Positions 1 through 59,150 of a stretch of 64,000 nucleotides of DNA are shown piece after piece. A program made the position numbers and the translations under genes. The notes beneath the pieces are model-generated. The model was not told the DNA's origin. It saw nothing but the letters and a program-made list of their open reading frames with translations, and searched no databases. The DNA lies in assembly GCA_003116995.1 (NCBI GenBank), contig BDSL01000072.1:310001-374000 (forward strand), written 5' to 3'. The DNA comes from Yamagishiella unicocca. Its lineage: Eukaryota > Chlorophyta > Chlorophyceae > Chlamydomonadales > Volvocaceae. Each line of letters begins with the position of its first letter. The stretch's first letter is position 1.

Positions 1-14569
<14,569 letters not shown>

Positions 14570-15180
14570 CGTCTACCTCGGCCTCGTGTGGTGGTGGGGG
14601 GGGCGGCCGGAATGCAGAGGCAGCGGACAGTGCGCGATTCGCTGACCATGGAAGTCGCCGGTGATTCCGGGAAGGTGGCACAACTTCCCGACCGGCCATC
14701 GTGCGCACCCTGGGCATCCTTAGATGTGTTTCATTACATGATGAGGCTAGGGCAAGGTACTAGGCCAAGGTACTGTTGGGAATGTCGCGCGCACAGTTCT
14801 TGAACGCCGAGGCGTCTTTCTGGCATGTAACGTTGATTGCACCGCCCAGGGCTGGAGCAGCAGGCATGGTCAGGGCATTGTAGATTAGATGTCATCACTG
14901 TTGTGAGGGTCAATAACGACGGGTCTCGGGCCTGCCAGGTGGATGATGCGTGACTTAGGTTCAGCACCACCTCGGCTTTTGACATTGCCTAGATTCTCCC
15001 CATGGCGCACGTTGATGGTGCGTGGATCTCTGCACGTGCGGGTTGGTTGGTTGACGAAATCCTGGTTAAAATCACGGAGCTTGGAGGCTCGTGGCCGGTA
15101 ACACCATCAGTAAACCTGAGTAAACGAGCTTCCGGCCTGCCACCGGGACTCTTATCTCCTGTAGGTTGCCCGTATTCAAG
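14570..15180 (+). other. PRP8 3' UTR and downstream flank
   Basis: No gene seen. A TGTAA motif at 14826-14830, about 260 bp after the stop, is the probable poly(A) signal. The segment is repeated with small indels at 23734-24310, so it belongs to the duplicated unit. Confidence 0.6.
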
Positions 15181-15220
15181 TATCCAAAAGTAGCAATCCA
15201 TCTCGTGAGAGCCGATGGTA

Positions 15221-15228
15221 CCAGTTTT
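15221..15228. repeat. Target-site duplication, left (CCAGTTTT)
   Basis: Eight bases directly outside the left inverted repeat, repeated exactly at 18530-18537. The empty site appears once, with one mismatch (CCAGTGTT), at 24384-24391 and at 30443-30450. Confidence 0.9.
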
Positions 15229-15571
15229 CCCGCCCGGCCAAACGGGCCCTTGGATTCAGGGCCCTGGCAACAATGGGACGAGCTCTTGCAATACGTTGTA
15301 CAAGTTCAATTGGGGGCCCTGGGGGGTGTACAGCTTTTCCTCACTCTTGCAAGCGCTTTTAAACAAGCCAGAGAAACAGCTTTCTTATTCAAGATGCAAT
15401 TAAAGATATGTGCTCACGAACCAGCAATGTAGAGAAGGCGAGAACGAGTAGCGAGGAGTAGGGGGAGTGCAGTCATTCAATCGACGAATCCCCTGCGAAC
15501 GACGCCCATTCAGGGACATAACCATAACGGCCGCTTCATAGTTGAATGATAACCTTGAACGCCCGGAACGA
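15229..15571 (+). repeat. Left terminal inverted repeat
   Basis: It matches the reverse complement of 18188-18529 with scattered mismatches and single-base indels, then diverges sharply after a GGAACGA stretch. Confidence 0.9.
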
Positions 15572-16417
15572 TTTGCACGCGATGGCACAGGGCCCGAGCC
15601 TTGCTCGGCGCCAAGTTGCAAATGCACCAATCCAATCAGCCATATACCAAAAAGAAGTAGAGATCATAGTGATACACGCGAGCTATAATACCGAACGACG
15701 TTAGCGAGTATGAGTGCCGTCATAAATGTCCCTGCTGCCAGAGTTAGAAAGTAGCAAAAGGTTCATTAGGCATATCTCAGGTAGAATTCATGCGGCGTCG
15801 AACGCCATTGGCCTAGCGTTGAACTACGTTACACCAGACGGTTGCTGTGTAGCGACAAAAGGTGGAAAGGAGTATTTGCTTTATCCGCAACAGAAAATAT
15901 CACATTCATCCCTAACATATTAAAGCAGCCTTACCATATTCGAAGTTTCTTAATGCCAGCAAGAGCGGCGGAGGGTGCAAGTTTACCGCGGTCGACCATG
16001 TACAGATCAAACTGGTTATTAACCAGCTAATAGCTGAGGGCGGATTTCCTGGCTGGTTCTTGCACACCCTGGGGCATAAAGATCGTCACAAAGCCAGGCC
16101 AGGCATTGTTTTGCAGCATGCTGGATGTAGCCGGAAGCTGAGGGGTCGTGTTATTCCTATGAACTTAGCAAGTACCACTTCGCTGCTGTGTTTGGGTGCA
16201 CGCAGCAAGGTGACGGTGGCAGGTGAGGCTGCTGTATGTCAAACTTTCCCGTCACAAATGGTTGTTCGTAAGGCGCATACACGCGATCAAACTATTAGCA
16301 GGGAACGATTCCTTAGCAAAAAAAGGGGAAGAACGCCTTGCCCCTTGGCACACCATACCGAATCGAGTAGACCGAATTTCAAGCGAGCCTAGAAAATATT
16401 TCCTTTGGCGATCACAG

Positions 16418-16852
16418 GTGGCGGTAGTGGGGCAGACATGGGCGGAGAAGGACAAGGATGTCATGCAGGTGGAGTTCTTTGGGCGCTGCATTCATCTCAT
16501 TACCCTGTATCAGTTCCAAGACGGCCGCCGGAACCGTGCCATCGCGCAACAATGTCTACGTTGGGCCCAGCAATAGTGCGTCGTGATGTTTCCTCGCAAG
16601 TAGGGCGCCAAAGTGCCCACACGATCATGCCTCATAGCTGTTTGTAACACCTTTGCATCGTTCCCCGATGTGTACGTGTGCCCCTTATTTGTGCACCACC
16701 ATGTATGCCCGTAGCCCGTTACGGCTGCATTATATCCATCATGACTTCATTGCCTGTACAGGTGCAAAGCCTAAAGTCTTGTTGAGTGCCATTATTGAGC
16801 ACTGGAGCAAGGCAAACCCAGCACTGCCATCGCACTGCAGCCTTTGGGAGAG
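16418..16852 (+). other. Possible transposase exons (unrecognised)
   Basis: Two stretches have splice-like borders. An open stretch from 16418, after an acceptor CAG, reads VAVVGQTWAEKDKDVMQVEF and runs to a stop at 16576. A second, 16762-16852, is bounded by CAG and GT and includes KPKVLLSAIIEHWSKANPAL. They look protein-like and lie inside the TIR transposon, but no family was recognised and they could be decayed. Confidence 0.25.
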
Positions 16853-17266
16853 GTGATACACAGGGTATGCTAGTTTCATTATTGCCATGTATGTGGAGGG
16901 AAATATCGTACAGTTGACGTATGCAAATATAACTGCTTTGTAGGAAGTAGCGGAACAGCGGAAAGAGCGGATAGGGGTGTAGGACTTCTCCAATGCCGAG
17001 TCCATCCTGGGTGGAGTGACCGCCATGCTCTTGAGCGCCTCAATACTTTAGATCTGCGGTCTGACTCTGGACGTTCAGCCAGGTCTGATGAACAGGTCGC
17101 TTCTGTCCTGGACCGTGTCAGGGCTTGGATAACTTCGCTGGATACCGTCACGGAGCGACAAGGAGCCCCTGGTGCCGAATGAGAAGAAAAGAAGAGACGG
17201 AAGAAGGGGCGAAAGCTAGGTGATGAGGAGAGCCCCGCAGAACCGCACTGGTGCGGGGCCCCTCAG

Positions 17267-17833
17267 GACCTGGCTTGGAGCCCCACCCAGCGGAGCCACG
17301 TTCGGACTTTGTTGCGTTTCGATTTTCACCCCGTGCTCTTGGGGCTGGGATTATAACTGTATGTATGTGCTGCGTACAAAGTTTTTGGTCGAACGGCCGT
17401 TGTCGGATTTCCCAGGGTTGGGCTGCGGCGTCCCCCAGGGCTGGCTTGGAGCCCCATGGAACCCCACCCAGCGGAGCCACGTTCGGACTTCGTTGCGTTT
17501 CGATTTTCACCGCGCTCTTTTGGGACTTGGATTATAACTGTATGTATGTGCTGTGTACAAAGTTTTTGGTCGAACGGCCGTTGTCGGATTTCCCAGGGTT
17601 GGGCTGCGGCGTCCCCCAGGGCTGGCTTGGAGCCCCATGGAACCCCACCCAGCGGAGCCACGTTCGGACTTCGTTGCGTTTCGATTTTCACCGCGCTCTT
17701 TTGGGACTTGGATTATAACTGTATGTATGTGCTGTGTACAAAGTTTTTGGTCGAACGGCCGTTGTCGGATTTCCCAGGGTTCGGCTGCGGCGTCCCTCAG
17801 GGCTGGCTTGTAGCCCCATGGAACCCCACCCAG
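17267..17833. repeat. 181-bp satellite array A (about 3 units) inside the transposon
   Basis: Consecutive units show TGTATGTATGTGCTG at 17358, 17539 and 17720, a period of 181 bp. Two units are nearly identical. Each unit includes GGTCGAACGGCCGTTGTCGG and CTGGCTTGGAGCCCC. The open frames in it are by-products of the repeat. A diverged array of the same family lies at 58228-59150. Confidence 0.88.
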
Positions 17834-18187
17834 GAGACGCCAGAAGAGCTAAGAGGACGGGATGAGCCCAACAGAATGTACGACCGGCTCGATCAGAAGT
17901 CGACAGTTCGGTCAGTTCCGGCATTAGCGCAATCGTTAGGGGTTCTCGATGCAACATGCTACATGCCCAAATATTGTTTTCTTGAGCCAAGCACAACGTT
18001 TAAGGGGTCTGGTCACTTGTTTTAGGGGAGGATGTCTTTCGTGAATACATAATTGTTAGAGCTTAACCGGTCTGCGGGGTTCTAGCCAATCGCAATCTGG
18101 TAGCTGTCCAAGGGTACAGAACTATCGCCACTGTGGTTTGGCTAGCGTTCTACAGCGTTCTATGAACAGGACCACCTGCTCTAAGAG

Positions 18188-18529
18188 TCGTTCCGGACGT
18201 TCAAGGTTATCGTTCAACTATGAAGCGGCCGTTATGGTTATGTCTCTGAATGGGCGTCGTTCGCAGGGGATTGGTCGTTTGAATGACTGCCCTCCCCCTT
18301 CTCCTCGCTACTCGTTCTCGCCTTCTCTACATTGCTGGTACGTGAGCACATATCTTTAATTGCATATTGTATAAGAAATCTGTTTCTCTGGCTTGTTTAA
18401 AAGCGCTTGCAAGAGTGAGGGAAAGCTGTACACCCCCAGGGCCCCCAATCGAACTTGTACAACGTATTGCAAGAGCTCGTCCCATTGTTGCCAGGGCCCT
18501 GAATCCAAGGGCCCGTTTGGCCGGGCGGG
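18188..18529 (-). repeat. Right terminal inverted repeat
   Basis: Reverse complement of 15229-15571; the outer end is GGCCGGGCGGG followed by the 8 bp target duplication. Confidence 0.9.
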
Positions 18530-18537
18530 CCAGTTTT
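18530..18537. repeat. Target-site duplication, right (CCAGTTTT)
   Basis: Exact direct repeat of 15221-15228, immediately outside the right inverted repeat. Confidence 0.9.
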
Positions 18538-18899
18538 GGTTCGACCTCACGTCGTAACCCCGGATACAAATACTTACTAATGCGACGTGCGAAACGGCTT
18601 TGCACCGCCTATGAGGAGTCCAGTATTGTGAATGGTTCAACATTAATAGGGTACTTTAAAGGCGGACACTCTGTCGCAATCCGAATAAGTACGACCCGTA
18701 GCACGTTGGCGGGATCCCACTTTAGGGCTGAATTTCGAAATTTCCCTCGGTACAGTCCTTATCATCTTAGAAACCTGCTCTCCTTGAGCATCTCTCCTCT
18801 CTTCTTCTCAAGCTCTGCTTCCTGTAGAAGTTTCGACTGAGGCCGCTGCCGCAGGGACTTTCACACACGCTTTTACCGTAGTGGCTGAACCGCTCAGCT
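18538..18899 (+). promoter_or_regulatory. 5' flank/leader of CR gene copy 1
   Basis: Non-coding stretch conserved at 24392-24753 and, in pieces, in the fold-back copy at 30451-31790. It should hold the promoter and 5' UTR of the nuclease-kinase gene. No TATA box or other named motif was identified. Confidence 0.4.
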
Positions 18900-21800
18900 A
18901 TGGCAGATGAGCTTGAGCAGGATATCAAGAAGGTACAGCATCAAATTGAGGAGTTGACAACCGCCATCGCGGCGGTCGAGAAGGAGCGATGCCGCCTGGA
19001 CAAGGAGGATCGAGACCGCCGGGACAAGGAGGAGCGAGACTGGCTGGTCAAGAAGGAGGAGCGAGACCGCATGGGCAAGGAGGAGCGAGAACGCCTGTAC
19101 AAGAAGGAGGAGCGAGACTGGCTGAACACGAAGGAGGAGCGGGACCGCCTGGTCATGGAGAAGCAGCAGCTCCGCGCGGAGAAGTTGGAGCTGCACAGGA
19201 CGGAGAATCTGCTGATGGAGGAGCGGGCCAGGAGTGAGTCGGATATCACACAACGTATTCGGGGACATGGCAGGACTGTGCGACCTGACAAGCTATGGAT
19301 CTGCGACCTGCCGTGTTGCTGCCATTATGCTCGTCTGATAGCATTCCGATCTCGTTGTCATCCCTGCACACATTGCATCTGGGCCTCGGTGGACTTCAGC
19401 TGAAGCTGATGGCACGCGCACATGGCTGTGGGGCGTTCCCATTGCCCGCAACTAGGCACCTGCACCCCCACCCTGCCCAGCGCTTACACTTGCAGGGATG
19501 GCGGCTGGCCCTAGCATTGTGGCGGCTGACGGTGAGCCTTGCATGCCCCTGTCGCATCTACTGGCTTGTGGCCGTCACTCTCTCTGGGGCGAGGTCTGCT
19601 GTGTGGTTCATGCAGGTTACTGGAATGCTGCCTGCCTGCTGCCCGTAGGAGAGACTGCAGCCAGAAACGTACAGGCTGCCATTGTCGTCGTGAAGGGCAC
19701 CCCCAGCTCGTTGGGTGAGGTCAAGGCGGCTGAGCCATACCTGCCAGACCCGCGCCGTCCGTCGTCCTGCGTAAAGGTGGCTTTCTTCGGGGGGCGCCCC
19801 TGCGCTGTGCCGCTGTCGACGGCCCTTCCCCTGCTGCTGGTGGCCCCGGAGTTTGGCCTTGTGCACGAGGCCGCGTATGGCAACGGCAACCGGCGTAACA
19901 GTGTATCAATGCAGATGGTCCAGGTATGCAAGACAGGCGGGGGAAGGAAGGGGAACCTCTTAGCCTGGTAGGAAGGAAGGAAGCATAAGCGAAAATAAAT
20001 AAGCATGAGATAAGGACCGAAGAAGAATGCAAGGAAGTAAGAAAGCCCCGTCAGTGGTACCCAGACGTGCTTTCAGATCGTCGCTAGCGGTGTTCACGCA
20101 GGGTAAAGCGTTGTATGCACACCCTGCCAAGGGTCACTCCTGCGCGGAAAAGCTGTGGGTTTGGCTCCCAGTCATGCATGCATGTAAGCAGTCCAATGCG
20201 CGGAAAGGCTGTGGGTTTGGCTCCCAGTCATGCATGCATGTAAGCAGTCCCGCTATCAGGCATGCTGGGCCACAAGCGAACATCCCTGCTCTGCCAAACA
20301 CGCAAAACACTGGTGTATTATGCTGGTGTCGGTGCCCTTTGCAATGCTCACTGCGAGGCAACCCGGGTGCTGGGCAATACAGATATATGTGTTTGTATTT
20401 TGTATAGAAGTTCAAACCGTGATCCATGTTGTAACATGGACCCAGTCTCAAGCATGCGGTGTATGTGTGCGCGCAGGCCGCAGAGGACCTGTGCACCACC
20501 ATGTGCGGGGTGTACCCAGGCGATAAGGAGCGCCAGGACCGGTTCATAAGGTGGCACAACACCTGGTTTGCGTTGAAGCTCGAGGTGCCGCAGCGCTCGT
20601 CATGTACGCAGAACGACGGCCACGCCGTGGTGACGACCAGGCTTGGTTCCTTCACCCTGGTGATTCTGGAGGTCAAGAATGAGCTAGGAGCCTCGGGCGA
20701 CCCGTACTTCCAAGCGCAGCGTTACTACCAGCTGGCCTACACAGATGGTCAGCGCTGGAACACCGACATCGTGGTCCGCGCCAGCCGTGCCCCCGCATTC
20801 TTAATGGACCTGGTGGGTCCCAACCTGGTCATACACGGCGTGGCGCACAAGGGCGGGAACGTGGTGATATGCGAGCCGCTCACGCCCCGGCTATTGCTGC
20901 TGCCCTTGCACTCGCGGCAGCCGGAACACCGAGAGCAGCTTGCGCGGGTGCTGGAAGCATATAGCTCGGGGGTCAGCGCGCTGCACGAACGCATCACACA
21001 GATGGTGGGCCCGGCCAAGGGCAGCACAAGCAGCCTGGGGCAGAGCTCTGGAGCGCAGCAGCCGGAACTGAACGACACGGGCGACGACGAGCCGGCGCCC
21101 CGCAACCCGCAGCAGCTGGCAGGCCTGCTGCAGGGCATGAACCTGAGCCAGACTGTGGCTCCCAAAGTGTCGGGCAGCTCTAGCAGCCCCACGGGTGTGC
21201 ACTTGGCCGCCTATCAGCAGGAGCGACAACTCGTGCCGTACCCCCTGCTAGGCGGCCAGCCCTACAGCCACGTGGAGCGGCTGCGCCAGCCGGAGGCAGA
21301 GCACAGCGACAAGCTGCTGTTTACGTGCGACCATGAGACGCATGGGAAAGTCGTGGTCAAGTTCACACTGCACGACTACCCCGCGGAGGTGAGTGTGGTG
21401 TGGAGCCGAAAACGTGTGAGGATGGTGTCAAGCTTGCTTGGCACGTTGGGATTGACATTGCTCTTGGAATGTGCAAGGGACCTGAAGAGGTGGGGTGGAA
21501 GTGTACCCCATCCGTGCTAAACGGGTGAGCACCCCTCAAGCATCCCTCGTTCCACTTTTCTCCTTGGCACCCTGGCCTCCGGTTTTGGCATGCACCGTCT
21601 GGTGTCTTATGTTTTGGTGCTCAGTCCACGAGTATTGCTCCTGTGCGCTGTCCACCCCATGCGCATGACCCTTTCCAGATCCACTACGCGTGGGCCCGTG
21701 TCGGACTGGCGCCCAGATTGTTCGACGTCGTGCGGCTGCCCGGCGGCTGGCGCATGGTGGTCATGGAGCACCTGCGCAAGGAGGACGGCTGGTGCACACT

Positions 21801-22212
21801 GGACCAGCTATCAGAACCCGATCGGGTTAGCCTGCGGGATGCGGTGGCCACGGCACTTGAAGCGGCGCACAAGGTGCAAGTGCTGCCTCCACGTCCACCC
21901 CGCCATCCCGCTGGGCAGCTGCTGCCTCAGCCAGAGGTTGGCGATGCAGGCGGTGAGCCCAGTGTAGGCGCCCAGCGGCAGCAGGCGGAGGCGCTAAACC
22001 GGCCGGCTGTGCACGGTGACGTGCGCCCGCCCAACGTGGCTGTGCAACTGCCAGCTGGCCAGATCCGGTTCCTTGACCTGGACTGGGCGGGACTGCAGGG
22101 CATGCAACGCTACCCGCATGGCATGAACATGTCCATTGGCTGGCACAAGGCCGCGGGGCCCGGCAAGGCCATGCACACAGAGCACGATCTCTATATGGCG
22201 GGGAAGCTGTGA
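18900..22212 (+). CDS. Crinkler/CR-type nuclease-kinase protein, copy 1
   Basis: Four-exon model: 18900-19233, 19496-19923, 20477-21388, 21679-22212; all GT-AG, phases agree, 735 aa. Residues 1-115 are a highly charged coiled coil built from repeats of the DKEERDR type. Residues 255-350 hold a PD-(D/E)XK-like core with LVILEVKNELG (E319, K321) followed by DPYFQAQRYY, the pattern of Crinkler nuclease domains. A Ser/Gln-rich linker leads to a divergent kinase: VVVK lysine near 549, hinge VVMEHL, catalytic HGDVRPPN at 670-677 and metal-binding DLDWAG at 691-696, followed by the RYP...GWH...HD tail typical of Crinkler kinases. In CR families these domains act as effectors on host nucleic acid or signalling; activity here is inferred. 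ATG 18900 was chosen because it heads the coiled coil and is kept in copy 2. A TGTAA lies at 22631. Confidence 0.72.
20141..20252. repeat. 56-bp tandem duplication in intron 2 of CR copy 1
   Basis: A segment containing CATGCATGCATGTAAGCAGT occurs twice in a row here and only once in copy 2 (near 25985-26036). It is a local expansion after the gene duplication. Confidence 0.85.
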
Positions 22213-22803
22213 GAGGAGCTTAGCCATGGAGACGCGCCAGCATGAGGGCTGTGGCGGTGCGGCCGTTAGCTGTATACACATGGCTAGGGGGCTGCCTAGC
22301 TCAGCTCGCCCTGTACTTGGGTGGGCATGGCGGGTGGTGGGGTGCGATGCCAGGCAGTGGTTGAGTGCGCATGCCGTTAAGTAAGGAATGGAAGCATTGG
22401 ATGGACTTGCACTGTGTCACTGGCTGGAGGTGTGTGGGTCGACTGAGGTCTGTCTCCGAGCTGCTGGCTGAAGGCCACCTAGAGCTGGGCTTGCCCCTCA
22501 TTGCAACAAGCCGGGTCACGGAATGTGAGGCGTTCTCTCGCCGGGTACCACTGCCGGGTGCCAGCGGATGCCACGGTCGGCTCAGTCATCGGAAGGAGGG
22601 GCCATTGCAGTGTTCGTGCGTGAATGGCCCTGTAAGATATGAAATCATATTTGATGCGATGTCTTTCACGTTATTTGATTTGCGGTCAGTTGGAGACACC
22701 AGTTTTTGTTTGATTATCCAGACTTATCATACGAGCCACAAACGTGGAACCCACTCGCCACCCGGGGATGACACAAGTTGAAGAACGTTATTGAGGCGTG
22801 CCG
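22213..22803 (+). other. 3' flank of CR copy 1 to element end
   Basis: No gene seen. TGTAA at 22631-22635 is a likely poly(A) signal. The last ~75 bp (TCATACGAGCCACAAACGTG onward) recur at 28505-28582 and 31802-31880, defining the shared right end of the element. Confidence 0.55.
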
Positions 22804-23733
22804 GGTCCGGTGCATCGTGATGGCGCTGCAGTGGGGCAAGCAGCAGCTGGTCAACCTGCCCTCCAACCTGCCGGACCACGACTTCCTGAAGGACCTGGAG
22901 CCGCTGGGCTGGGCATCCACAATGAGCTGCCGCAGATGTCGCCGCAGGTACGAATGCACCGAGCCGCAGCGGCGAGTTGTTACTACTCATACCAATTGCA
23001 CCTGCCGTTTCTGCTGCTGTCGTCCGTGTCGAACATCGTACCCTGCCAATGCTGTCATCCTTATTTTGGTACATGGGAGAGCCGCAGACGCCTTTGCTAA
23101 CACAGAGCTGATGTTGCCCTCCCGTAGGACGTGATGAGCCGTGCCAAGATGCTGGAGGCCCACCGCAGCTGGGACGGCGAGCGCTGCGTGCTGGTGACGG
23201 TGTCGTTCACGCCGGGCTCGTGCTCGCTGACGGCGTACAAGCTGACACCGGGCGGCTACGAGTGGGGCCGCAGCAACAAGGACGTGTCGGCGAACCCACA
23301 GGTGCGCGAAGGATGTATTAATACATGTGAGGCTCATTTGAACGCGAGCGTTTGCCCCGACATGCCAGCCAAAGGTGATGCCGCTTCCAAGTCCTCGAGG
23401 TCGGAGGTCGCAAACCGGCAAAAGCAGCCACATGTGACGTTTGTGGCTGAAGCGTGCGGAACATTTACGGAAGGAGAGGATTGCGATGTCTTCTAAGCTT
23501 TTACGGGGGGGCAACCCTCGCTCAGGCTTTACGAGGGCATCGATTACTCCTCTAGTGTAAACGTATTGGCCACCCATTGATACATATTCGACGTCCTGCG
23601 ATCATTGGGCAGTTGCTTGATCTGTCCCACCTCCCCTCTCCCCTCTGCCGCCCTCAGGCCGACGCACTTTCTGGAGTTCTCTACGCTGGAGGACGCCGAC
23701 CCGGGGGTCGATGTGGAGAACCACTTCGCTTAA
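22804..23733 (+). pseudogene. PRP8 3'-end fragment, copy 2 (exons 30, 31, 33)
   Basis: Homology to PRP8 begins abruptly inside exon 30 at its fifth codon or so. The fragment has a short deletion and frameshift near 22912-22920, exon 31 at 23128-23301 with its acceptor changed to TAG, a deletion that removes all of exon 32, and exon 33 with its stop at 23731-23733. It covers only part of the Jab1/MPN domain, has no start codon context, and cannot make a working product. Confidence 0.93.
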
Positions 23734-24310
23734 CGTCTACCTCGGCCTCGTGTGGTGGTGGGGGGCCGGCCGGAATGCAGAGGCAGCGGACAGTGAGCGA
23801 TTCGCTGACCATGGAAGTCGCTGATGATTCCGGGAAGGTGGCACGACTTCCCGAGCGGCCATCGCGCGCACCCTGGGCATCCTTAGATGTGTTTCATTAC
23901 ATGATGAGGCTAGGGCAAGGTACTAGGCCAAGGTACTGTTGGGAAGTCGCGCGCACAGTTCTTGAACGCCGAGGCGTCTTTCTGGCATGTAACGGTGATT
24001 GCATCGCCCAGGGCTGGAGCAGCAGGCATGGTCAGGGCATCGTAGATTAGATGTCATCACTGTTGTGAGGGTCATTAACGACGGGTCTTGGGCCTGCCAG
24101 GTGGATGCGTGACTTTGACATTGCCTAGATTCTCCCCATGGCGCACGTTGATGGTGCGTGGATCCCTGCAGGTGCGGGTTGGTTGGTTGACGAAATCCTG
24201 GTTAAAATCACGGGAAGCTTGGAGGCTCGTGGCCGGAAACACCATCAGTAAACGAGCTTCCAGCCTGCCACCGGGACTCTTATCTCCTGTAGGTTGCCCG
24301 TATTCAAGTA
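23734..24310 (+). other. Duplicated PRP8 downstream flank (copy 2)
   Basis: Counterpart of 14570-15180 with small deletions. No gene seen. It shows that the duplication carried the PRP8 3' end and its flank as one piece. Confidence 0.8.
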
Positions 24311-24753
24311 TCCAAAAGTAACATAGCAATCCAACTCGTGCGCGGCTGGGCTGACAAAACGGTGTCCGCGAGAGCCGATGGTACCAGTGTTGGTGCGACC
24401 TCACGTCGTAACCCCGGATACAAATACTTACTAATGCGACGTGCTAAACAGCTTTGCACCGCCTTGAGGAGTCCAGTATTGTGAATGGCTCAACATTAAT
24501 AGGGTACTTTAAAGGCGGACACTCTTGTCGCAATCCGAATAAGTACGACCCGTAGCACGTTGGCGGGATCCCACTTTAGGGCTGAATTTTGAAATTTCCC
24601 TCGGTTCAGTCCTTATCATCTTAGAAACCTGCTCTCCTTAAGCATCTCTCCTCTCTTCTTCTCAAGCTCTGCTTCCTGTAGAAGTTTCGACTGAGGCCGC
24701 TGCCACAGAGAATTTCACGCACGCTTTTACCGTAGTGGCTGAATCGCTCAGCT

Positions 24754-27700
24754 ATGGCAGATGAGCTGGAGCAGGATATCAAGAAGGTACGGCATCAAAT
24801 TGAGGAGTTGACAACCGCCATCGCGGCGGTCGAGAAGGAGCGATGCCGCCTGGACAAGGAGGATCGAGACCGCCGGGACAAGGAGGAGCGAGACTGGCTG
24901 GTCAAGAAGGAGGAGCGAGACCGCATGGGCAAGGAGGAGCGAGAACGCCTGTACAAGAAGGAGGAGCGAGACTGGCTGGACAAGAAGGAGGAGCGGGGCC
25001 GCCTGGTCATGAAGGAGCAGCAGCTCCGCGCGGAGAAGTTGGAGCTGCACAGGAAGGAGAATCTGCTGATGGAGGAGCAGGCCAGGAGTGAGTCGGATAT
25101 CACACAACGTATTCGGGGACATGGCAGGACTGTGCGACCTGACAGGCTACGGATCTGCGACCTGCCGTGTTGCTGCCATTATGCTCGTCTGATAGCATTC
25201 CGATCTCGTTGTCATCCCTGCACACATTGCATCTGGGCCTCGGTGGACTTCAGCTGAAGCTGATGGCAAGCGCACATGGCTGTGGGGCGTTCACATTGCC
25301 CGCAACTAGGCACCTGCACCCCCACCCTGCCCTGCGCTTACACTTGCAGGGATGGCGGCTGGCCCTGGCATTGTGGCGGCTGACGGTGAGCCCTGCATGC
25401 CCCTGTCGCATCTACTGGCTTGTGGCCGTCACTCTCTCTGGGGCGAGGTCTGCTGTGAGGAGGTTCATGCAGCTTACTGGAATGCTGCCTGCCTGCTGCC
25501 CGTAGGAGAGACTGCAGCCAGAAACGTACAGGCTGCCATTGTCGTCGTGAAGGGCACCCCCAGCTCGTTGGGTGAGGTCAAGGCGGCTGAGCCATACCTG
25601 CCAGACCCGCGCCGTCCGTCGTCCTTCGTAAAGGTGGCTTTCTTCGGGGGGCGCCCCTGCGCTGTGCCGCTGTCGACGGCCCTTCCCCTGCTGCTGGTGG
25701 CCCCGGAGTTTGGCCTTGTGCACGAGGCCGCGTATGGCAACGGCAACCGGCGTAACAGTGTATCAATGCAGATGGTCCAGGTATGCAAGGCAGGCGGGGG
25801 AAGGAAGGTGAACCTCTTAGCCTGGTAGGAAGGAAGGAAGCATAAGCGAAAAGAAATAAGCATGAGATAAGGACCGAAGAAGAATGCAAGGAAGTAAGAA
25901 AGCCCCAGACGTGCTTTCAGATCGTCGCTAGCGGTGTTCACGCAGGGTAAAGCGTTGTATGCACACCCTGCCAAGGGTCACTCCTGCGCGGAAAAGCTGT
26001 GGGTTTGGCTCCCAGTCATGCATGCATGTAAGCAGTCCCGCTATCAGGCATGCTGGGCCACAAGCGAACATCCCTGCTCTGCCAAGCACGCAAAACACTG
26101 GTGTATTATGCTGGTGTCGGTGCCCTTTGCAATGCTCACTGCGAGGCAACCCGGGTGCTGGGCAATACAGATATATGTGTTTGTATTTTGTGATAGAAGT
26201 TCAAACCGTGATCCATGTTGTAACATGGACCCAGTCTCAAGCATGCGGTGTATGTGTGCGCGCAGGCCGCAGAGGACCTGTGCACCACCATGTGCGGGGT
26301 GTACCCAGGCGAGAAGGAGCGCCAGGACCGGTTCATAAGGTGGCACAACACCTGGTTTGCGTTGAAGCTCGAGGTGCCGCAGCGCTCGTCATGTACGCAG
26401 GACGACGGCCACGCCGTGGTGACGACCAGGCTTGGTTCCTTCACCCTGGTGATTTTGGAGGTCAAGAACGAGCTAGGAGCCTCGGGCGACCCGTACTTCC
26501 AAGCGCAGCGTTACTACCAGCTGGCCTACACAGATGGTCAGCGCTGGAACACCGACATCGTGGTCCGCGCCAGCCGTGCCCCCGCATTCTTACTGGACCT
26601 GGTAGGTCCCAACCTGGTCATACACGGCGTGGCGCACAAGGGCGGGAACGTGGTGATATGCGAGCCGCTCACGCCCCGGCTATTGCTGATGTCCTTGCAC
26701 TCGCGGCAGCCGGAACACCGAGAGCAGCTTGCGCGGGTGCTGGAAGCATATAGCTCGGGGGTCAGCGCGCTGCACGAACGCATCACACAGATGGTGGGCC
26801 CGGCCAAGGGCAGCACAAGCAGCCAGGGGCAGAGCTCTGGAGCGCAGCAGCCGGAACTGAACAACACGGGCGACGAGGAGCCGGCGCCCCGCAACCCGCA
26901 GCAGCTGGCAGGCCTGCTGCAGGGCATGAACCTGAGCCAGACTGTGGCTCCCAAAGTGTCGGGCAGCTCTAGCAGCCCCACGGGTGTCCACTTGGCCGCC
27001 CATCAGCAGGAGCGACAACTCGTGCCCTACCCCCTGCTAGGCGGCCAGCCCTACAGCCACGTGGAGCGGCTGCGCCAGCCGGAGGCAGAGCACAGCGACA
27101 AGCTGCTGTTTACGTGCGACCATGAGACGCATGGGAAAGTCGTGGTCAAGTTCACACTGCACGACTACCCCGCGGAGGTGAGTGTGGTGTGGAGCTGAAA
27201 ACGTGTGAGGATGGTGTCAACGGTGCAGCTTGCTTGGCACGTTGGGATTGACATTGCTCTTGGAATGTGCAAGGGACTTGAAGAGGTGGGGTGGAAGTGT
27301 ACCCCATCCGTGCTAAACGGGTGAGCGCCCCTCAAGCATCCCTCGTTCCACATTTCTCCTTGGCACCCTGGCCTCCGGTTTTGGCATGCACCGTCTGGTG
27401 TCTTATGTTTTGGTGCTCAGTCCACAAGTATCCCATGTACCTTTTCCCGGACTGCTCCTGTGCGCTGTCCACCCCATGCGCATGACCCTTTCCAGATCCA
27501 CTACGCGTGGGCCGGTGTCGACCTGGCGCCCAGATTGTTTGACGTCGTGCGGCTGCCCGGCGGCTGGCGCATGGTGGTCATGGAGCACCTGCGCAAGGAG
27601 GACGGCTGGTGCACACTGGACCAGCTATCAGAACCCGATCGGGTTAGCCTGCGGGATGCGGTGGCCACGGCACTTGAAGCGGCGCACAAGGTGCAAGTGC

Positions 27701-27990
27701 TGCCTCAGCCAGAGGTTGGCGATGCAGGCGGTGAGCCCAGTGTAGGCGCCCAGCGGCAGCAGGCGGAGGCGCTAAACCGGCCGGCTGTGCACGGTGACGT
27801 GCGCCCGCCCAACGTGGCTGTGCAACTGCCAGCTGGCCAGATCCGGTTCCTTGACCTGGACTGGGCGGGACTGCAGGGCATGCAACGCTACCCGCATGGC
27901 ATGAACATGTCCATTGGCTGGCACAAGGCCGCGGGGCCCGGCAAGGCCATGCATACAGAGTACGATCTCTATATGGCGGAGAAGCTGTGA
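24754..27990 (+). CDS. Crinkler/CR-type nuclease-kinase protein, copy 2
   Basis: Exons 24754-25087, 25350-25780, 26266-27177, 27496-27990; 723 aa. It is a close paralogue of the gene at 18900. Differences are substitutions plus two length changes, both multiples of three: one extra codon in exon 2 and 13 fewer codons in exon 4, in the linker before the catalytic loop. Exon 3 has exactly the same length. The EVK nuclease motif, kinase lysine, HGDVRPPN and DLDWAG are all kept. In copy 2 a stop follows soon after the exon 3 donor, which supports splicing at GAG/GTGAGT. Frame-preserving changes suggest that protein coding is, or was until recently, maintained. TGTAA lies at 28410-28414. Confidence 0.72.
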
Positions 27991-28582
27991 GAGGAGCTTA
28001 GCCATGGAGACGCGCCAGCATGATGGCTGTGGCGGTGCGGCCGTTAGCTGTATACACATGGCTAGGGGGCTGCCTAGCTCAGCTCGCCCTGTACTTGGGT
28101 GGGCATGGCGGGTGGTGGGGTGCGATGCCAGGCAGTGGTTGAGTGCGCATGCCGTTAAGTAAAGGAATGGAAGCATTGGATGGACTTGCACTGTGTCACT
28201 GGCTGGAGGTGTGTGGGTCGACTGAGGTCTGTCTCCGAGCTGCTGGCTGAAGGCCACCTAGAGCTGGGCTTGCCCCTCATTGCAACAAGCCGGGTCACGG
28301 AATGTGAGGCGTTCTCTCGCCGGGTACCACTGCCGGGTGCCAGCGGATGCCACGGTCGGCTCAGTCATCGGAAGGAGGGGCCATTGTAGTGTTCGTGCGT
28401 GAATGGCCCTGTAAGATATGAAATCATATTTGATGCGATGTCTTTCACGTTATTTGATTTGCGGTCAGTTGGAGACACCAGTTTTTGTTTGATTATCCAG
28501 ACTTATCATACGAGCCACAAACGTGGAACCCACTCGCCACCCGGGGATGACACAAGTTGAAGAACGTTATTGAGGCATGCCG
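27991..28582 (+). other. 3' flank of CR copy 2 to element end
   Basis: Nearly identical to 22213-22803. No further gene seen. Confidence 0.55.
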
Positions 28583-29815
28583 GGTCCGGTGCATCGTGAT
28601 GGCGCTGCAGTGGGGCAAGCAGCAGCTGGTCAACCTGCCCTCCAACCTGCCGGACCACGACTTCCTGAAGGACCTGGAGCCGCTGGGCACAATGAGCTGC
28701 CGCAGATGTCGCCGCAGGTACGAATGCACCGAGCCGCAGCGGCGAGGTGTTACTACTCGTACCATTTGCACCTGCGGTTTCTGCTGCTGGCGTCCGTGTC
28801 CAACATCGTACCCTGCCCATGCTGTCATCCTTATTTTGGTACATGGGAGGGCCGCAGACGCGTTTGCTAACACAGGGCTGGTGTTGCCGCCTCGCAGGAC
28901 GTGATGAGCCATGCCAAGATGCTGGAGGCCCACCGCAGCTGGGACGGCGAGCGCTGCGTGCTGGTGACGGTGTCGTTCACGCCGGGCTCGTGCTCGCTGA
29001 CGGCGTACAAGCTGACGCCGGGCGGCTACGAGTGGGGCCGCAGCAACAAGGACGTGTCGGCAAACCCACAGGTGCGCGAAGGATGTATTAATACATATAA
29101 GGCTCATTTGAACGCGAGCGTTTGCCCCGACATGCCAGGCAAAGGTGGGAGCCCCAATTCCTCGAGGTCGGAGGTCGCAAACCGGCAAAAGCAGCCCCAG
29201 CAATGTCCGGAACGTTGCTTCTCCCAACAACCTTGCTTGATGTCCTTGCCAGTCGCCATCGATGTGCCCGTCCTTCGCGACCCGACCGCATGACACCAAC
29301 ATTCTTTCCGCCCGTCCTCCTCGGTTATAACTCGGCCGCAGGGCTACAAGCCGGACTTCTACGTGCCGCTGCTGCTGTCGGACCGCTTCATGGGCTTTTA
29401 CATGGTGCCGGACGCCGGGTCATGGAAATATAATTTTATGGGGGTCAAGCACAGCCCGACGATGAAGTACGGCCTGCGCCTGGCCAACCCCAAGGAGTTT
29501 TACCATGAGATCCACAGGTGAGCGATCTGCTGGGGTAAGGAAAGGAGCTAGTGGGGGAGGAAGGGGCACGGTGTTCTGACATGTGTCAATGTGACGTTTG
29601 TGGCTGAAGCCTGCGGAACGTTTACGGAACGAGAGGATTGCGGTGTGTTCGAAGCTTTTACGGGGGGGGTGCAACACCGGCTCAGGCTTTATAAAGGCAT
29701 CGATTACTCCTCGAGTGGAAAGGTATTGGCCATACGTATTCCACGTCCTGCGATCGTTGGGCAGTTGCTTGATCTGGCCCACCTCCCCTCTCCCCTCCGC
29801 CACCCTCAGGCCGAC
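28583..29815 (+). pseudogene. PRP8 3'-end fragment, copy 3 (exons 30-32)
   Basis: It starts at the same exon 30 breakpoint as copy 2. Exon 30 has a larger deletion that removes the end of its coding part. Exon 31 is 28898-29071; exon 32 is present at 29342-29517 with a six-base in-frame deletion. The final exon is lost: homology ends at its acceptor (CAGGCCGACG) and an 82 bp tandem repeat follows. Copies 2 and 3 decayed by different deletions. Confidence 0.93.
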
Positions 29816-29818
29816 GGG

Positions 29819-30035
29819 TGACTACAGACCTTGATAGGCTGGTCCCTAGTGCCCCGGGCCTCAGACTCTTACTCTGCTGTCCTGTGGAGTCACTCAGCGT
29901 TGACTACAGACCTTGATAGGCTGGTCCCTAGTGCCCCGGGCCTCAGACTCTTACTCTGCTGTCCTGTGGAGTCACTCAGCGTTGACTACAGACCTTGATA
30001 GGCTGGTCCCTAGTGCTCCGGGCCCCCAGACCCTT
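29819..30035. repeat. 82-bp tandem repeat, about 2.6 units
   Basis: ACTACAGACCTTGATAGGCT recurs at 29821, 29903 and 29985, an exact 82 bp period. The third unit is partial and then diverges. Confidence 0.93.
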
Positions 30036-30370
30036 ACTCTGTTGGTACGACGAGCCACCTGGCGTAGACTCTGGACCCGTCGAGGCCAGTCCCCAGGGCT
30101 CCGGGCTTTGCCCTCAAACCTGTAACGGTTCAGTTGATAAACTGCGCCACGCATTCCCCAAAGAGTCTCGTTACGCTGCACGAGCACGTGAGCGAGTCCG
30201 CCTAACAAACTGACAAACCTTCCGCTGCAACTCGATATCTCGATTAGAACTACACCAGTCCCCTACTAAAGTGGAATTCTTCCATAGTCGTCCCGTGGGT
30301 CAAACGCTGCGTTTCCGTCTCCTACGGGCGTAGTGCGGCGACAGTTACTACGCAACGACCTGGGCAGACC
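30036..30370. other. Spacer without recognised features
   Basis: Unique sequence between the 82 bp repeats and the left end of the third CR element copy. No gene or repeat recognised. Confidence 0.5.
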
Positions 30371-30520
30371 TCCAAAAGTAAGATAGCAATTAACTCGTGC
30401 GCGGCTGGGCTGACAAAACCGTGTCCGTGCGAGCCGATGGTACCAGTGTTGGTGCGTTCTTCACGCCGTAAGCTCGGATACAAATACTTACTAAATGCGA
30501 CGTGTGAAACAGTTAAGCGG

Positions 30521-30775
30521 CGGCGAATACGGTACAGACTCCAGGCAGGGATGTCACCGCCTTGAGGAGTCCAGGCGGGGATGCTATGTGAATGGCGCCT
30601 AACAACAACAACAGCTTCTTTGCGCGGGACTTAATAAGGTACTTTATAGGCGGATAATCTATCGCAATCCGAATAACTACGACCCGTAGCACGTTGGCGG
30701 GACCCCACTTCAGGGCTGAATTCTCGAATTTCCCTCGGTTCAGTTCTTATCGTCTTCGAAACCCGGTTGTCAACT
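30521..30775 (+). repeat. Outer arm (left) of the fold-back
   Basis: Its reverse complement is 31540-31790; both correspond to the 5' flank of the CR gene. Confidence 0.8.
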
Positions 30776-31544
30776 CCTTAATTTCATGCTGAGCCTCCTT
30801 AATATCCTGCAGAACCTGCTCCAGCTCATCTGCCACAGCCAGCGATTCAGCCACACAGGAAAAAACGTGTATGGAAGTTGCTGCGTCAGCGGCCTCTGTC
30901 GAAACTTTCTACAGGAAGCAGAAAAGACATGCTCGAGGAGAGCGGATTTCTAATCCTTATGATCTTCGAAACCCGCTCCCCTCTAGCATCACTTGTCTCT
31001 TCTTCTCGAGCTCTGCTTTCTGTAGAAAGTTTCGACCAAGGCCGTTGACGCAGCAACGTTTTTTCCACTGTGGCTAAGTCGCTAAGCTATCGCAGATGAT
31101 CTGGAGCAGGTTTTGTAGGATATTACGGAGGTTGACAACCGCCATCGCGGCGGTCGAGAAGGTCCGAGACCGCCTGGACAAGGAGGAGCGAGACCGCATG
31201 GACAAGAAGGAGCGAGACCGCATGGAAAATGAGGAGCGAAACCGCCTCCCGAGGCAGTCTCGCTCCTCCTTTTCCAGGCGATCTCGTTCGCCCTCCTTGC
31301 CCATGCGGTCTCGCTCCTTCTTGTCCAGGCGTTCTCGGACCTTCTCGACCGCCGCGATGGCGGTTGTGAACTCCTTAATTTCATGCTGAACCTCCTTAAT
31401 ATACTGCAGAACCTGCTCCAGCTCATCTGCCATAGCTAGCGACTCAGTCACTACGGTAAAAACGTGTGCGGAAGTTGCTGCGTCAGCGGCCTCGGTCGAA
31501 ATTTTCTACAGGAAGCAGAAAAGACATGCGGAGGAGAGCGGGTT
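30771..31544. pseudogene. Three inverted remnants of the CR gene 5' end (coiled-coil part)
   Basis: Three copies of the leader and first codons lie in alternating orientation. In the minus copy at 30771-30955 the start codon reads GTG, in the plus copy at 30956-31245 it reads ATC, and in the minus copy near 31246-31451 it is ATG with an open charged coiled-coil frame that runs into the mirrored arm. None has nuclease or kinase exons. Confidence 0.8.
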
Positions 31545-31790
31545 TTCAAAATGATAAGCACTGAACCGAGGGAAATTCGAAATTCAGCCCTGAAGTGGGA
31601 TCCCCCCAACGTGCGACGGGTCGTAGTTATTCGGATTGCGACAGATTATCCGCCTACAAAGTACCCTATATTAAGTTGTACTACCCGCGTAAAGGTGTTG
31701 TTGTTGTTGGGCGCCATTCACATAGCACCCCCGCCTGGACTCCTCAAGGCGATGACATCCCTCCCCGGAGTGTGTACCATATTCGCCTAT
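31540..31790 (-). repeat. Outer arm (right) of the fold-back
   Basis: Inverted counterpart of 30521-30775. Confidence 0.8.
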
Positions 31791-31880
31791 TCAAACCTCT
31801 TCATACGAGTCACAAACGTGGAACCCTCTCGCCACACGGGGACGCCACAAAGTGAACCAGGTTATTTTAGGCGTGCCGCG

Positions 31881-34435
31881 CCGCTGCCGCTGCCATCAAC
31901 TTGCGCCTGACCCAGTTCGATCGCAGCTTCCTTCTGCAGCGGCTCGTGCAGACAGTGTTGAAGCTGGAGTATGCAACCTCGTTGACTTGCCGTACTGCAA
32001 ATGCCCTGTCTGCATGCCCCGATACTTGGCATATGTAAATTCACCGACCCCCGCCGCATGTGAGCATTTCTCGCATTCCCTGGTTTCCGCTGGCAATGGG
32101 GGACATTCAAGAGTGTCACAAACCTAGTTACACGAGGGGCGGGCTCGATGGTTCACAAGGGTGGTGGTCAGCACCGTTGACGACCCAGAGGAAAACCTAA
32201 TAATTTAATAGCAATAAAGGACATGGCGGCGTCATTGGCCGGGAGCTCGGTGTGAAAGCTTCGCGTCCGCGCGCTGGGCTCGGGCACGATTTACGATTTT
32301 TTACATGTCGTACTGGCTCGCGCCAGTAGCATGCGTCCCCCATAACGGACGTCCGTCAAAGGGCGCACTCTCTAAAACTGATACTAGCAAATCGGGATTA
32401 TTCCCGTAATGACTCTGTACGCGCTCTCTATATCTGAGCCAATATCTGGCTCGGGTAGGTGCCGATTGCCGTACGTGTCATAACCCCGCCCACTCTTGGG
32501 GCTCAGGGCGCGTCCGTATGGTTTCGGTCGAATGAAAGGGTCGACATCTGGCTTGGGGCATGCATGCACGTGCACCAGACACGAATCCTTGGCCGCTACT
32601 CCAGGGGTGGCTGCGTTCTCCCCATGCTCGCAGTAGGAAAGGAGCCCGAAAGAGTTGAAGGCATTGTCGCTCGTTTTTCGCATAGTGCTATAGAGGAATT
32701 TTAGGGCATTGGCGGTAAGCTTGAATGGCTGCAGCATCGGATATCAAACTCTTGGTGGCATATTGCTGAGCGTTACCGCTCTGTGACGGTCTGTGACTGT
32801 AAGCATGTTTACGTCCTGTTAGAATGCGAGCTAAACTATTTTCTTCAACGCGATGGCATCAGCAAGCATGTCATCTCAGCGTTCCTCCCGCTCCGCTTCT
32901 TTAGGAAGAGGACCATTTCGGACTACACAAAAGTATTCAGAGCGCAGCGGGGTGGCTCTGTCATGCCCCAGCGCCGGCACGTATGTTTCACCGGCATTGA
33001 TTCCGAAGCCAGGGCATTTGTTTTTCCGCTTACATGCTGTTGCCGTAACTACAGCGCCTCTGTTGCTCTTAGGATTCGGGTTCTTCTCGTTTCGACAGCG
33101 ATAGGGACACGTGTGAATCTCGCAATCCAGGTCGGGCGCAGGGCCCTTCTGACCGGATCCGTTGGTGCCGCACGAGTACTTAACGGAACCACGCCTCATT
33201 CCTCGGCGTGTTGCTTGGTTGTCTTGTTCTGTTGATCGCGTGTAGCCGATTTAGCGTGTAGCAGTTGTTGTTGTAACGGTGTAGCAGTGTAGCAGACACT
33301 GAGTGTTGCAGTGTAGCGGTGTCGCAGTGCTGCAATTCCTGCTGTGTTGTTTTCCAAACTATTATGAGCATGCGCATAGCGTTGCTCATATGTCTTTACG
33401 CCATTGAGGAAAGCCAAAGTGCGTTCGAGGAACAATCCACTTGGGTATATGCCGGTCGCGTCGAGGCTGTCAATTTGCATTTCAAACGGGTCGACAGAGG
33501 TGATGGAACAGGTTCATATGTACACGTGTATACATATTATTGAAGAAGTTCTCCCAGGCACTGTCACTCTGGTAACTTACTGCCCATTCAGTTGACAGTC
33601 CGACCCGCGACCCAAGCCGCCAAGCGGATTCCGTCCAAGTGGGGTGGCTATGCATCCAATACTATAAATATAAGACGAAGTAGTATATGGCAAGTGGGAT
33701 CATATAGTGTCGGATAGTTGTTGTGCAAGTCTGCGGGCGTGCGCTTCCAGGTTGGGAGGGACCCCGCCATGCTTGCCAGTAGCAACGGAACTGAGCGCAT
33801 ACAAATAATCTTTGAAATTGGTATACGACGGTATGAGGATTTTCTGAAGCGTGTACACAATTATGAGCATGGATCGTCCCTTAACGCATCCCACGCCGGT
33901 GATTAATTATAAGTGCAACCGCAGCAGTTAATAATAATGCAACCACCTCAGTGTGGGCTCAAGCTTCTGTGCCGCACCAACTTTGTTTCCATAATGGCAC
34001 TTTACTTTGAAGGAGAAAGCCACACCCTGAAACATTGGCATACATGGAAAATTTTTCAACTCCACTCTCCGCTTCCGCTCCACTCTCACTCTCGCTCCCT
34101 CTCCAGTCACAACCTTCCACTGCAATGCGCACCACTGCGCACCGCTCTGCCAAATGATCCCTAAAATCTGCGCTGCCGCATGTGAAGTGCATGATGCACT
34201 CCAACAAGCGAGCGATGCACCCTTCATTTCGTCATACGAGGCTTAAGCAGCTTAACTAGAATCAAGCCCCGATGCTAGCGCTAATCAGGTGCCAATGTCA
34301 AGTCTTCGCGTTACTTCAATCACTCAAAACTCAAACACTGTACTGACAGGAGCAGGCGTTGACCGTTGTCCGTTGACAGCATAACAAACCATGCATTGGT
34401 CGCGTGGAGGGTCCAACGGCCTCTTAGCGCATATT
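31881..34435. other. Intergenic stretch, no gene recognised
   Basis: Open frames here (for example the 150-codon plus frame at 32783-33235) show no recognisable motifs and overlap frames on the other strand. A low-complexity tract of GTGTAGC-like repeats lies at about 33235-33325. The right part should contain the 3' flank of the MLO gene. Confidence 0.5.
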
Positions 34436-37400: not shown

Positions 37401-40400
37401 CCGGTACGATGGTGGTCAACGCATGCGGGGGCCGCGGCGGTGGGGCGCTGGCAACGGAGGTGGGAGGAGGGCTTGACCAGGTAGGTCGGCTGGTTGGATG
37501 GGGGAGGGGGCGCGAACCGCCAAAAAGGAAGAGGAGGAGCTTCGGCCAAGTATGGAAAGTATGGCAAGTACGGCAGCCCTGGAGGCGCACCCGTCTGATT
37601 TCCTGTCCAGCGTCTCGACCTCACCCGGCGCCCCTCCCCGCCCCGTGCGCTACGTCACTGCCGCAGCCACGCGCCCGTGTCCACGCCACGCTGGCGCACC
37701 TGTGACGAGGTCTGCGCGTACTCGGCGCCGCAGTAGCACGGCCGCAGCAGCAGCGGCACCCGTCGGCGCCGGCCGGAGGGGGTCCGCTGGGTCCTGAAGG
37801 CGGCGGGCCGGCGGACGGGAATGCCCAGCACGCCCCGCGAGGAGCTGCGGGCGCTAGAGTAGCTGGAGCCGGAGTCCGAGCCCGAGCCAGAGGGGGGCCG
37901 CAGCAGCTGCGGGGACGTGAAGCTGTCCTGAGGCTCGAGCCCGATCGTCTGCACCGTCAGCCGAGGAAAGCTGCGCGGCTGGTCGGTGTCGGCTGGTCGT
38001 GCGGCGCCGGAGGTGCCGTTGACGGCCGCGGCGCCGTTGGCTCCTGTTGCGACGGCGCCGGCGTTGCTGGAGCCGTTGTCTGTTGCAGAGGCAGCGGCGG
38101 GGAGTGCAGCAGCTGCTGGCGCTGCCGTCACCGCCGCGTCCCGGGATCCCCGCAGCGCCTGATCCTGAGACCTCCTAGGTGCCTTCTCCTGAGACCTCCT
38201 AGGCGCCGGAGGCTGAGGCCGCTGGGGCAGCTCGCCATGCGGCGGCAGCGGGTGGAAGGAGCTGCGCAGCGAGGCCGCCCTGTGCTGCTGATCTGGGTTG
38301 CGCTGGAAGATTTCAAACACCGACCGGCGGGCAAAGGACCCCGTTTTAGCTGGCGCCGGGCGGCTAGGCCCGGAGAGCGACTGAGTCACCTTCCGCCCTG
38401 CGCCCTTCGGGTCCTGCTGCTGCCGATCCTGATGCTGATGCTGATGGTGATGGTGGTGGTGGTGGTGACGGCCGCCGCCATGCTTCGTCGGCGCCCTGTG
38501 GCTGGGCGACCCCTCCTTAATAATGCTCAGGTGGCGGCCTGGCCCCTCAGGTGGCTGCTCGCCGGCTCCTGAGAACCTCACGTTGCCTCCCGCTAGCTGC
38601 CGCCGCACCGCCGCAGGGGCGCTACCCCTTGCAAGGCCGCTCCGGGTCCCCCTGCTCTGCAACACACCTCCTGCTCCTCCAATACCCCCTCCGCCCCCTG
38701 ACGCGTCTTGCGGCGCAGTCGCCATGGGAGCAAGCTCGCGCGTCGCCGGCTCTGGCGCCGGCTCCGGCCCCGGCGCCGCCTCACAAATCTCCCCACCAGC
38801 AGCAGCAGCGGCCCCGCCGCTGCCGGCTCCTCCGCTACCAACTACGCCGCTGCCAGCCCCGCTGATGCCCACTCGTCCCCCCGACAACGTTGAAGCCATC
38901 GACCGCAGCATCCCCAGTGCCTGCTCGCGTGACGACAGCTGATCGATCGACGCCTCCAGCGGCCTGCGGCCAGCGCCCTCGGCCGCGCCCCCCTTGTCCG
39001 CTGTCCCCCCAGTGCCCGCCGCCATGAGCCCCGGCATCCCGGTTACGCAGTCCAGGAAGCGCTGCTGCATGGTGGGGCTGTTGATGGCGCTGGCCCGCAA
39101 CGACGAGCGGCCCAGAGCCGTGATGCCCGCCTTGGCAAGGGGGTTGGCGGCCATCCGCCCAAATACGACACTCTCGCCGTACTTGATGGCCACCTGCGCA
39201 GTCGTGGAGGGGAGAGGAAGGGAAGGGCGGGGGTGTGTGTATGTGGGCGCCAGGAAGATGGGCGCGTCATCCGTTGTGTCAGGAGGCAGGGGGAGAGCGC
39301 GAGGGGTTGCAAGAAAGGAGGAAAGGAGAAATGGACGAACGGACAAAAGCATAAAAGGACAAAGGACCGGCTACTCGACGTTGGAAGTGTAGCTGGTGGC
39401 TTGCAAGGAAACCCAGTGTAGCTGGTGGCTTGCAAGGAAACCCAGTGTAGCTGGTGGCTTGCAAGGAAACCCAGTGTAGCTGGTGGCTTGCAAGGCAACC
39501 CCGTGTAGCTGGTGGCTTGCAAGGCAACCCAGTGTAGCTGGTGGCTTGCAAGGAAACCCAGTGTAGCTGGTGGCTTGCAAGGAAACCCAGTGTAGCTGGT
39601 GGCTTGCAAGGCAACCCAGTGTAGCTGGTGGCTTGCAAGGCAACCCAGTGTAGCTGGTGCATAGAGTGCGAGGGGGGTGGTATAAAAACCGTATTACGCA
39701 ACGGGACAGGATAGTTGGCGCATGGTCGGTGCATGGTCGGTGCATGGTTGGCGCATGGTTGGCGCATAGTGCGAGGGGGGGGCCAAGTTGGGGCGTGCAG
39801 CGCGGTGGCAGGTACGTGGCATAGGGTATGGAGTGCGGCGGGTCCCGGCCCCGCTGCTTTCCCTCGTCCGGCCCATCCCGTCGCCCCGAAAAAGACGCGC
39901 GTTTCTTCGCTGCCCCCCCCCCTGCCCCCGCCCTCTGTAGCCGCCCCCTTGCTCCTCGCCCCCTGTACCCGCCTGCACTGAGATCTGCCCCAGGATGTCG
40001 ACGAGCTTGGCGCCAATGACGATCACCAGGATCAATGCGATGCCGTACATCCAGAACGACACGAACGCCGGCGAGGGGATGGCGTACCAGAACACGGCGA
40101 TGAGCCACAGGTGCCACTCCGGGCGCAGCTGCACACCGGCACGGCGGGCAGACACGGAGCCAGATGAGGGGGGAGGACGACGACGAGGGACGCGCACCAG
40201 CTGAAGACTACTGTCGAAGACTGCCCGGCCCCTATCCACGGAGCCCGCGGCGGCGGCGGCGCCCCTGAACACCCCAGGCACCTGGCCTACAGCCCCCGCG
40301 GCAGGACGGCTGCTGCCCCTCGCTGGATGACCGCGCACCGCTCCCTAGCGTCCTGCTCTGCCCCCTTGCTTCACCCGCCCCGCCCTCCGCCTGCCATGCC

Positions 40401-58227: not shown

Positions 58228-59150
58228 GATAGGCCGAACGGCAGTTGTCCGATTTCCTAGGATTGGGCTGCGGTGGCCCTCAGGGTTGGCTTGCTTGCTT
58301 GCTTGGCTGGAACCCTGCCGCCGGCGGATTGCACCCCACCTGGCGGAGCAGCATTCCGACTGAGAAGCGTATCGATTCTCGCCGCGCGCTTTGGAGGTCG
58401 GGGTTATTACTGTATGTATGTGCTGTGTGCAACGTTGTAAGCCAAATGGCCGTTGTCATGTTTCCTAGGGTTGGGCCGCGGTGGCCTTCAGGGCCCGCTT
58501 GGAGCCCCGTCGGATTGCATCCCACCTGGCGGCGGAGCAGCATTCTGACTGAGAAGCATATCGATTCTCGCCGCGCGCTTTGGAGGTTAAGTTCCTTTCT
58601 GTATGTATGTGCTGTTTGCAAAGTTGTAGGCCGAACGGCCGTTGTCAGGTTTCCTGGGGTTGGGCTGCGGTGGCCTTCAGGGGTGGCTTGGAGCCCCGCC
58701 GGATTATTGCACACCACGCACCTGGCGGAACAGCATTCCGACTGATAAGCATATCGATTCTCGCCGCGCGCTTTGGAGGTGAAGTACCTTTCCGTATGTA
58801 TGTGCTGTTTGCAAAGTTGTAGGCCGAACGGCCGTTGTCAGGTTTCCTGGGGTTGGGCTGTGGTGGCCCTCAGGGCCTGGCTTGGAGCCCCGCCGGATTG
58901 CACGCAGCCCGCCTGGCGGAGCGACGTGCGGACTGAATATCGTATCGATCCTCGGGGCACGCTTTGGAGTTTGGGTTTACCACTGCATGTACGCGCGCCC
59001 TGTACCAAGTTGCATGTGGACGGCCGCCTTTCATGGTTGGGGCTGCGGCGCCCCTCAGGGTCTGGCTTGCACTCCGCCTGGCGGAGGGACGTGCGGACTT
59101 GACAGCGTACCTACCCTTGCTGCGCGCTTTGGAGGCCGGGAGGTGCCGCA
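58228..59150. repeat. ~190-bp satellite array B (about 5 units)
   Basis: The landmark TGTATGTATGTGCTG or a variant recurs at about 58411, 58600, 58793 and 58984, a period of 189-193 bp. Units share GGCCGAACGGCCGTTGTC, GGGTTGGGCTGCGGTGGCC and CTTGGAGCCCC with array A at 17267-17833, so both arrays belong to one satellite family. Units here are more diverged from each other. Confidence 0.88.

Follow-up and report, generated by a model that had tools for sequence, protein, structure and literature searches.

The stretch analysed (hereafter the window) comprises 64,000 nucleotides of the volvocacean green alga Yamagishiella unicocca (assembly GCA_003116995.1, contig BDSL01000072.1, here C72:310001-374000, forward strand) and carries two genes, copy A and copy B, each encoding a charged header, a nuclease-like core and a protein kinase (Table 1). 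Both genes were found intact where the first-pass annotation, made from the letters of the window, had placed them, with GT-AG introns and open frames; EVK, DPYFQAQRYY, HGDVRPPN and DLDWAG were all present in copy A and in copy B. DNA identity between the copies, compared by pieces, was 96.8–97.1%. The exon count of the annotation was not retained: four exons give proteins of 735 (A) and 723 (B) residues, and five exons 696 and 683. Segment 19532-19648 of copy A had intron-like GT..AG ends in all four aligned paralogues, and the equivalent segment contained an in-frame stop in the paralogue on contig C58 and a 4-base insertion in that on C59; because of these features the five-exon model is preferred and the four-exon model was judged less likely. 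The header was assigned by eye to a charged coiled coil. No signal-like hydrophobic stretch was seen by eye at the hydrophilic N-terminus of either protein, and the Pfam matches listed (E ≤ 10) included no P-loop family; on both points (no obvious secretion signal, no P-loop NTPase module) the annotation was upheld.

Table 1: Features of the nuclease-kinase locus (positions within the window; an empty cell means that nothing was assigned).
Feature	Position	Strand	Remark
Copy A, nuclease-kinase gene	18900..22212	+	ATG 18900, stop ends 22212
Copy A, five-exon model	18900-19233, 19496-19531, 19649-19923, 20477-21388, 21679-22212	+	
Copy A, four-exon alternative	19496-19923	+	read as one exon
Copy A, exon 1	18900..19233	+	charged coiled-coil header, repeated KEERDRL-like units (coiled coil by eye)
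Copy A, nuclease-like core	20615..20776	+	DG..ExK..GDPYFQ..YY
Copy A, kinase catalytic loop and metal motif	22000..22143	+	HGDVRPPN, DLDWAG
Copy B, nuclease-kinase gene	24754..27990	+	ATG 24754, stop ends 27990
Copy B, five-exon model	24754-25087, 25350-25385, 25506-25780, 26266-27177, 27496-27990	+	
Third, degraded copy	30371..31787		5' flank and exon-1 pieces, alternating orientation; palindrome 30522-31787
Long hairpin of exon-1 sequence	31119..31382		
Prp8 gene, 3' part	10460..14567	+	Pfam Prp8 domains matched from 1340 on
Truncated Prp8 3' copy	22804..24320	+	within duplicated unit
Second truncated Prp8 3' copy	28583..29816	+	
Transposon-like element	15229..18529		343-bp inverted ends (95.9%), 8-bp direct repeat at borders

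Relatives in protein collections: single-sequence searches gave none at E ≤ 0.001 among 7995 proteins scored and none at E ≤ 10 among 2033; a single sequence against the PDB gave 0 matches. Of 7991 proteins scored with a profile of five algal members, 4 matched at E ≤ 10, with P0003 (4.7e-91) and P0004 (9.0e-32) at the top; the other two (0.12 and 0.64) carry kinase Pfam domains. P0004 is the hypothetical protein DFH11DRAFT_1607181 of the wood-rotting fungus Phellopilus nigrolimitatus (Agaricomycetes; Hymenochaetales). As in the algal proteins, a short kinase, here with GD.R..N and DFDWAG, comes after a nuclease-like domain, and the proposal that such a core and a kinase are joined in one protein was supported; unlike them, P0004 is without the long charged coiled coil (by eye), its kinase loop reads FGD in place of the algal HGD, and where the algal DG pair has its D, one alignment shows Met and the other a gap. 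No confirmed relatives were found among viral contigs or bacterial and archaeal contigs, and none among phages; with PADLOC, three PD-T4-6 models were weakly matched (E 0.011–0.027), each in one of five members and none in copy A.

Genome searches covered 133,378,104 bases in 1415 contigs. Matching places numbered at least 34 with the exon-3 protein, at least 47 with the kinase exon, at least 94 with P0003 and at least 23 with the DNA of the commonest copy type. Merging of 51 match positions, collated by hand, gave at least 48 family loci on 30 contigs, a lower bound that includes fragments and broken copies and, on small contigs, may count the two versions of a single locus separately. Arrays were seen on C125 (five copies, ~6.17 kb apart), C39 (five loci) and C55 (six). 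Our best guess is that copies A and B are two recent tandem members of this large, fast-evolving family.

Coding constraint was estimated on the two core exons of four paralogues (A, B, C58, C59; six pairs) as the ratio of nonsynonymous to synonymous divergence (dN/dS). These exons were open, with lengths still multiples of three, at an overall dS of up to 0.213; overall dN/dS was 0.58–0.71, which suggests only weak constraint, and 1.04 to 2.28 in the inter-domain linker (small counts). For the pair C58-C59 the nuclease part gave 0.77 and two kinase parts 0.14 and 0.48, again with small counts. Judged by these reading frames, the window copies and their paralogues are real, fast-evolving proteins.

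The protein-kinase domain lies C-terminal to the domain resembling a restriction endonuclease (REase). A kinase fold was seen in P0003 and, on grounds of homology (33% over 93%), was carried over to the copies. At 19 of 20 loci the catalytic-loop pattern H(G/S)D(V/M)R..N was found; C171, where the frame ends early, has none, and in C93 the Asp of the DFG-like motif is replaced by Gly. The small kinases RIO1, Bud32 and those of APH type show 17% identity to the family kinase, which differs from them by its fusion to a nuclease-like domain and its short C-lobe. IRE1 and RNase L, in which a kinase-fold domain stands beside a nuclease, were among the structural matches by way of the kinase part and serve as a working analogy only; we take their nuclease domains to be of another fold and to follow the kinase, and no homology to the algal proteins is claimed.

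The pattern DG..ExK..GD..FQ..YY recurs, with some variation, across the algal types and in P0003; the motif DG..ExK..Q..Y may mark a PD-(D/E)XK domain, as general background and the review PMC5289972 suggest. The motif scan covered the window piece together with 20 retrieved loci (24 motifs) and used a pattern that requires Lys and leaves Glu free. It matched all 20 loci and both window copies, the Lys therefore being kept in them; the ExK Glu was present in 18 of the 24 motifs, copies A and B included.

As far as the account in PMC5289972 goes, the combination REase + kinase is the layout of about one-sixth of Crinkler (CR) C-termini, and CR headers are either ubiquitin-like (Ubl) with LxLFLAK or of various alpha-helical kinds; the CR REase-kinase class itself is thus already known. 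The algal proteins share domain order and combination with that class as described there; the Ubl/LxLFLAK header was not found in the algal copies. The family is most likely a CR-like nuclease-kinase, the resemblance being one of predicted layout. Among the papers listed, none on green-algal CR proteins was found by title or abstract start, this general review aside.

Around the two genes, the repeat unit was found to consist of the nuclease-kinase gene and a Prp8 3' piece, head to tail: the Prp8 3' end (13316-15192) recurs in both truncated copies of Table 1, and a third gene copy, at 30371-31787, is degraded. The extra piece being the end of the adjacent Prp8 gene, duplication by unequal exchange seems likelier than capture by an element. 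C58 and C59 had no Prp8 piece within the 9 kb compared. The claim that the genes are carried on a small repeated element was not sustained: no element ends with target duplication enclosing the gene were found in the window, and the sole element with ends sits between Prp8 and copy A and excludes the gene; a transposon enclosing the gene was therefore rejected for the window. The matching empty site in the next unit retains 7 of the 8 bases of the 8-bp repeat. Three 181-bp tandem repeats (17276-17833) lie inside the element, with relatives at 58333-58891; elsewhere in the window a tandem array of a 29-bp unit was noted (39328-39717). Rfam gave 0 matches on 14000-34000, and a tRNA search gave 0. 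At L020:7740-8288 (minus strand) a reading frame with repeated tetratricopeptide (TPR) units, presumably kinesin-light-chain-like, was observed; stretches overlapping or adjoining it recur in L014 and L027.

Folding of 31110-31390, which spans the hairpin of the third copy, gave -222 kcal/mol, whereas 200 shuffles gave -100.2 ± 5.3 (z -23.2). Perfectly antisense 21-mers, counted over the first 620 bases of each copy, were 15 of 1246 to copy A and 22 of 1246 to copy B; at ≤2 mismatches the numbers rose to 111 (A) and 107 (B) of 1246, one shuffled control giving 0 even with 3 mismatches allowed. Against the paralogue stretches, perfect antisense 21-mers numbered 4 (C58) and 0 (C59). The palindrome end sequence recurs at C29, C73 and C89, and part of its interior at C69; none of these four sites had an inverted repeat of its own within the 0.65–1.0 kb compared, and a dispersed foldback element was rejected.

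The reading we put forward, at a probability of roughly one half, is an intracellular conflict or defence nuclease-kinase, CR-like and gated by its own kinase. The coiled coil would drive self-association or placement, the ExK domain would cut nucleic acid inside the cell, and the small RIO/APH-like kinase would gate it by phosphorylation, by analogy with other kinase-nuclease fusions, in which kinase domains gate nuclease activity; the protein would be kept as an intracellular effector and not exported.

Several results weigh against it. The two folds proposed by the first-pass annotation fared differently, the kinase being recovered on P0003 and the nuclease not: the nuclease profile retrieved 0 PDB sequences, no relevant Pfam family was found for this part in 6 members, and its predicted local distance difference test (pLDDT) score was below 50 in both structure models, which were uninformative for it and one of which was exon 3 folded from two sequences (mean pLDDT 31.0). 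In the PDB the algal-only profile found poor matches (12 sequences; best a designed protein, 0.019; kinases from 0.031). The Crinkler N-terminal family was absent from the Pfam matches at E ≤ 10 for copies A and B; the label "CR-type" was supported in part, by the REase-kinase layout, but the nuclease part drew no independent match. The ExK Glu was missing, with Lys retained, in 6 of the 24 motifs (Val in C58, Gly in C59, Lys in C38, Val in three C125 copies; loci L009, L010, L016, L021 and L022, the last two being one array), and the fungal P0004 has Arg in place of the ExK Lys (E-M-R); catalysis may therefore be dispensable.

These substitutions, together with the lower dN/dS of the kinase parts in the pair C58-C59, would suit a family that works, in much of its membership, through the kinase, with an ExK domain that binds protein or nucleic acid but does not cut. 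We consider this unlikely: most scanned motifs, those of both window copies among them, keep the Glu, C38 also has a stop, so that its change may be decay, and the Gly of C93 means that kinase residues are lost as well. Four of the five C125 exon-3 matches contain TAA, possibly beyond the exon end. Distinctly improbable, in our estimate, is a selfish family that multiplies for itself and is silenced by the host, possibly through the hairpin locus. The many copies and arrays agree with it, as does a hairpin made from the family's own exon 1 with perfect antisense matches to A and B, and in Drosophila simulans the selfish Dox genes are silenced by hairpin RNAs (PMC10292708); but no element ends were found around the genes in the window, where spread was by local duplication, and antisense matches to C58 and C59 are few or none.

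Very improbable is a secreted or transferred effector turned on other organisms, the role proposed for the Crinklers of oomycetes: the layout is that of CR effectors as described in PMC5289972, but no signal-like N-terminus was seen (by eye), and the Pfam matches did not include the Crinkler N-terminal family. Least probable of all would be a toxin system repeatedly tamed, with some paralogues selected for loss of the catalytic Glu alone as blunted coiled-coil partners, and with small RNAs from the hairpin of the broken copy restraining the live copies as an RNA antidote within the array.

What is new here are the losses of the ExK Glu with Lys kept and the hairpin derived from a degraded third copy; both features deserve a specialist's second look. 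Crinkler-like nuclease-kinases have, to judge from paper titles, been studied mostly as parasite effectors. In a culturable and apparently free-living alga, a large family that forms arrays would let one ask what role such proteins may have where there is no host to attack.
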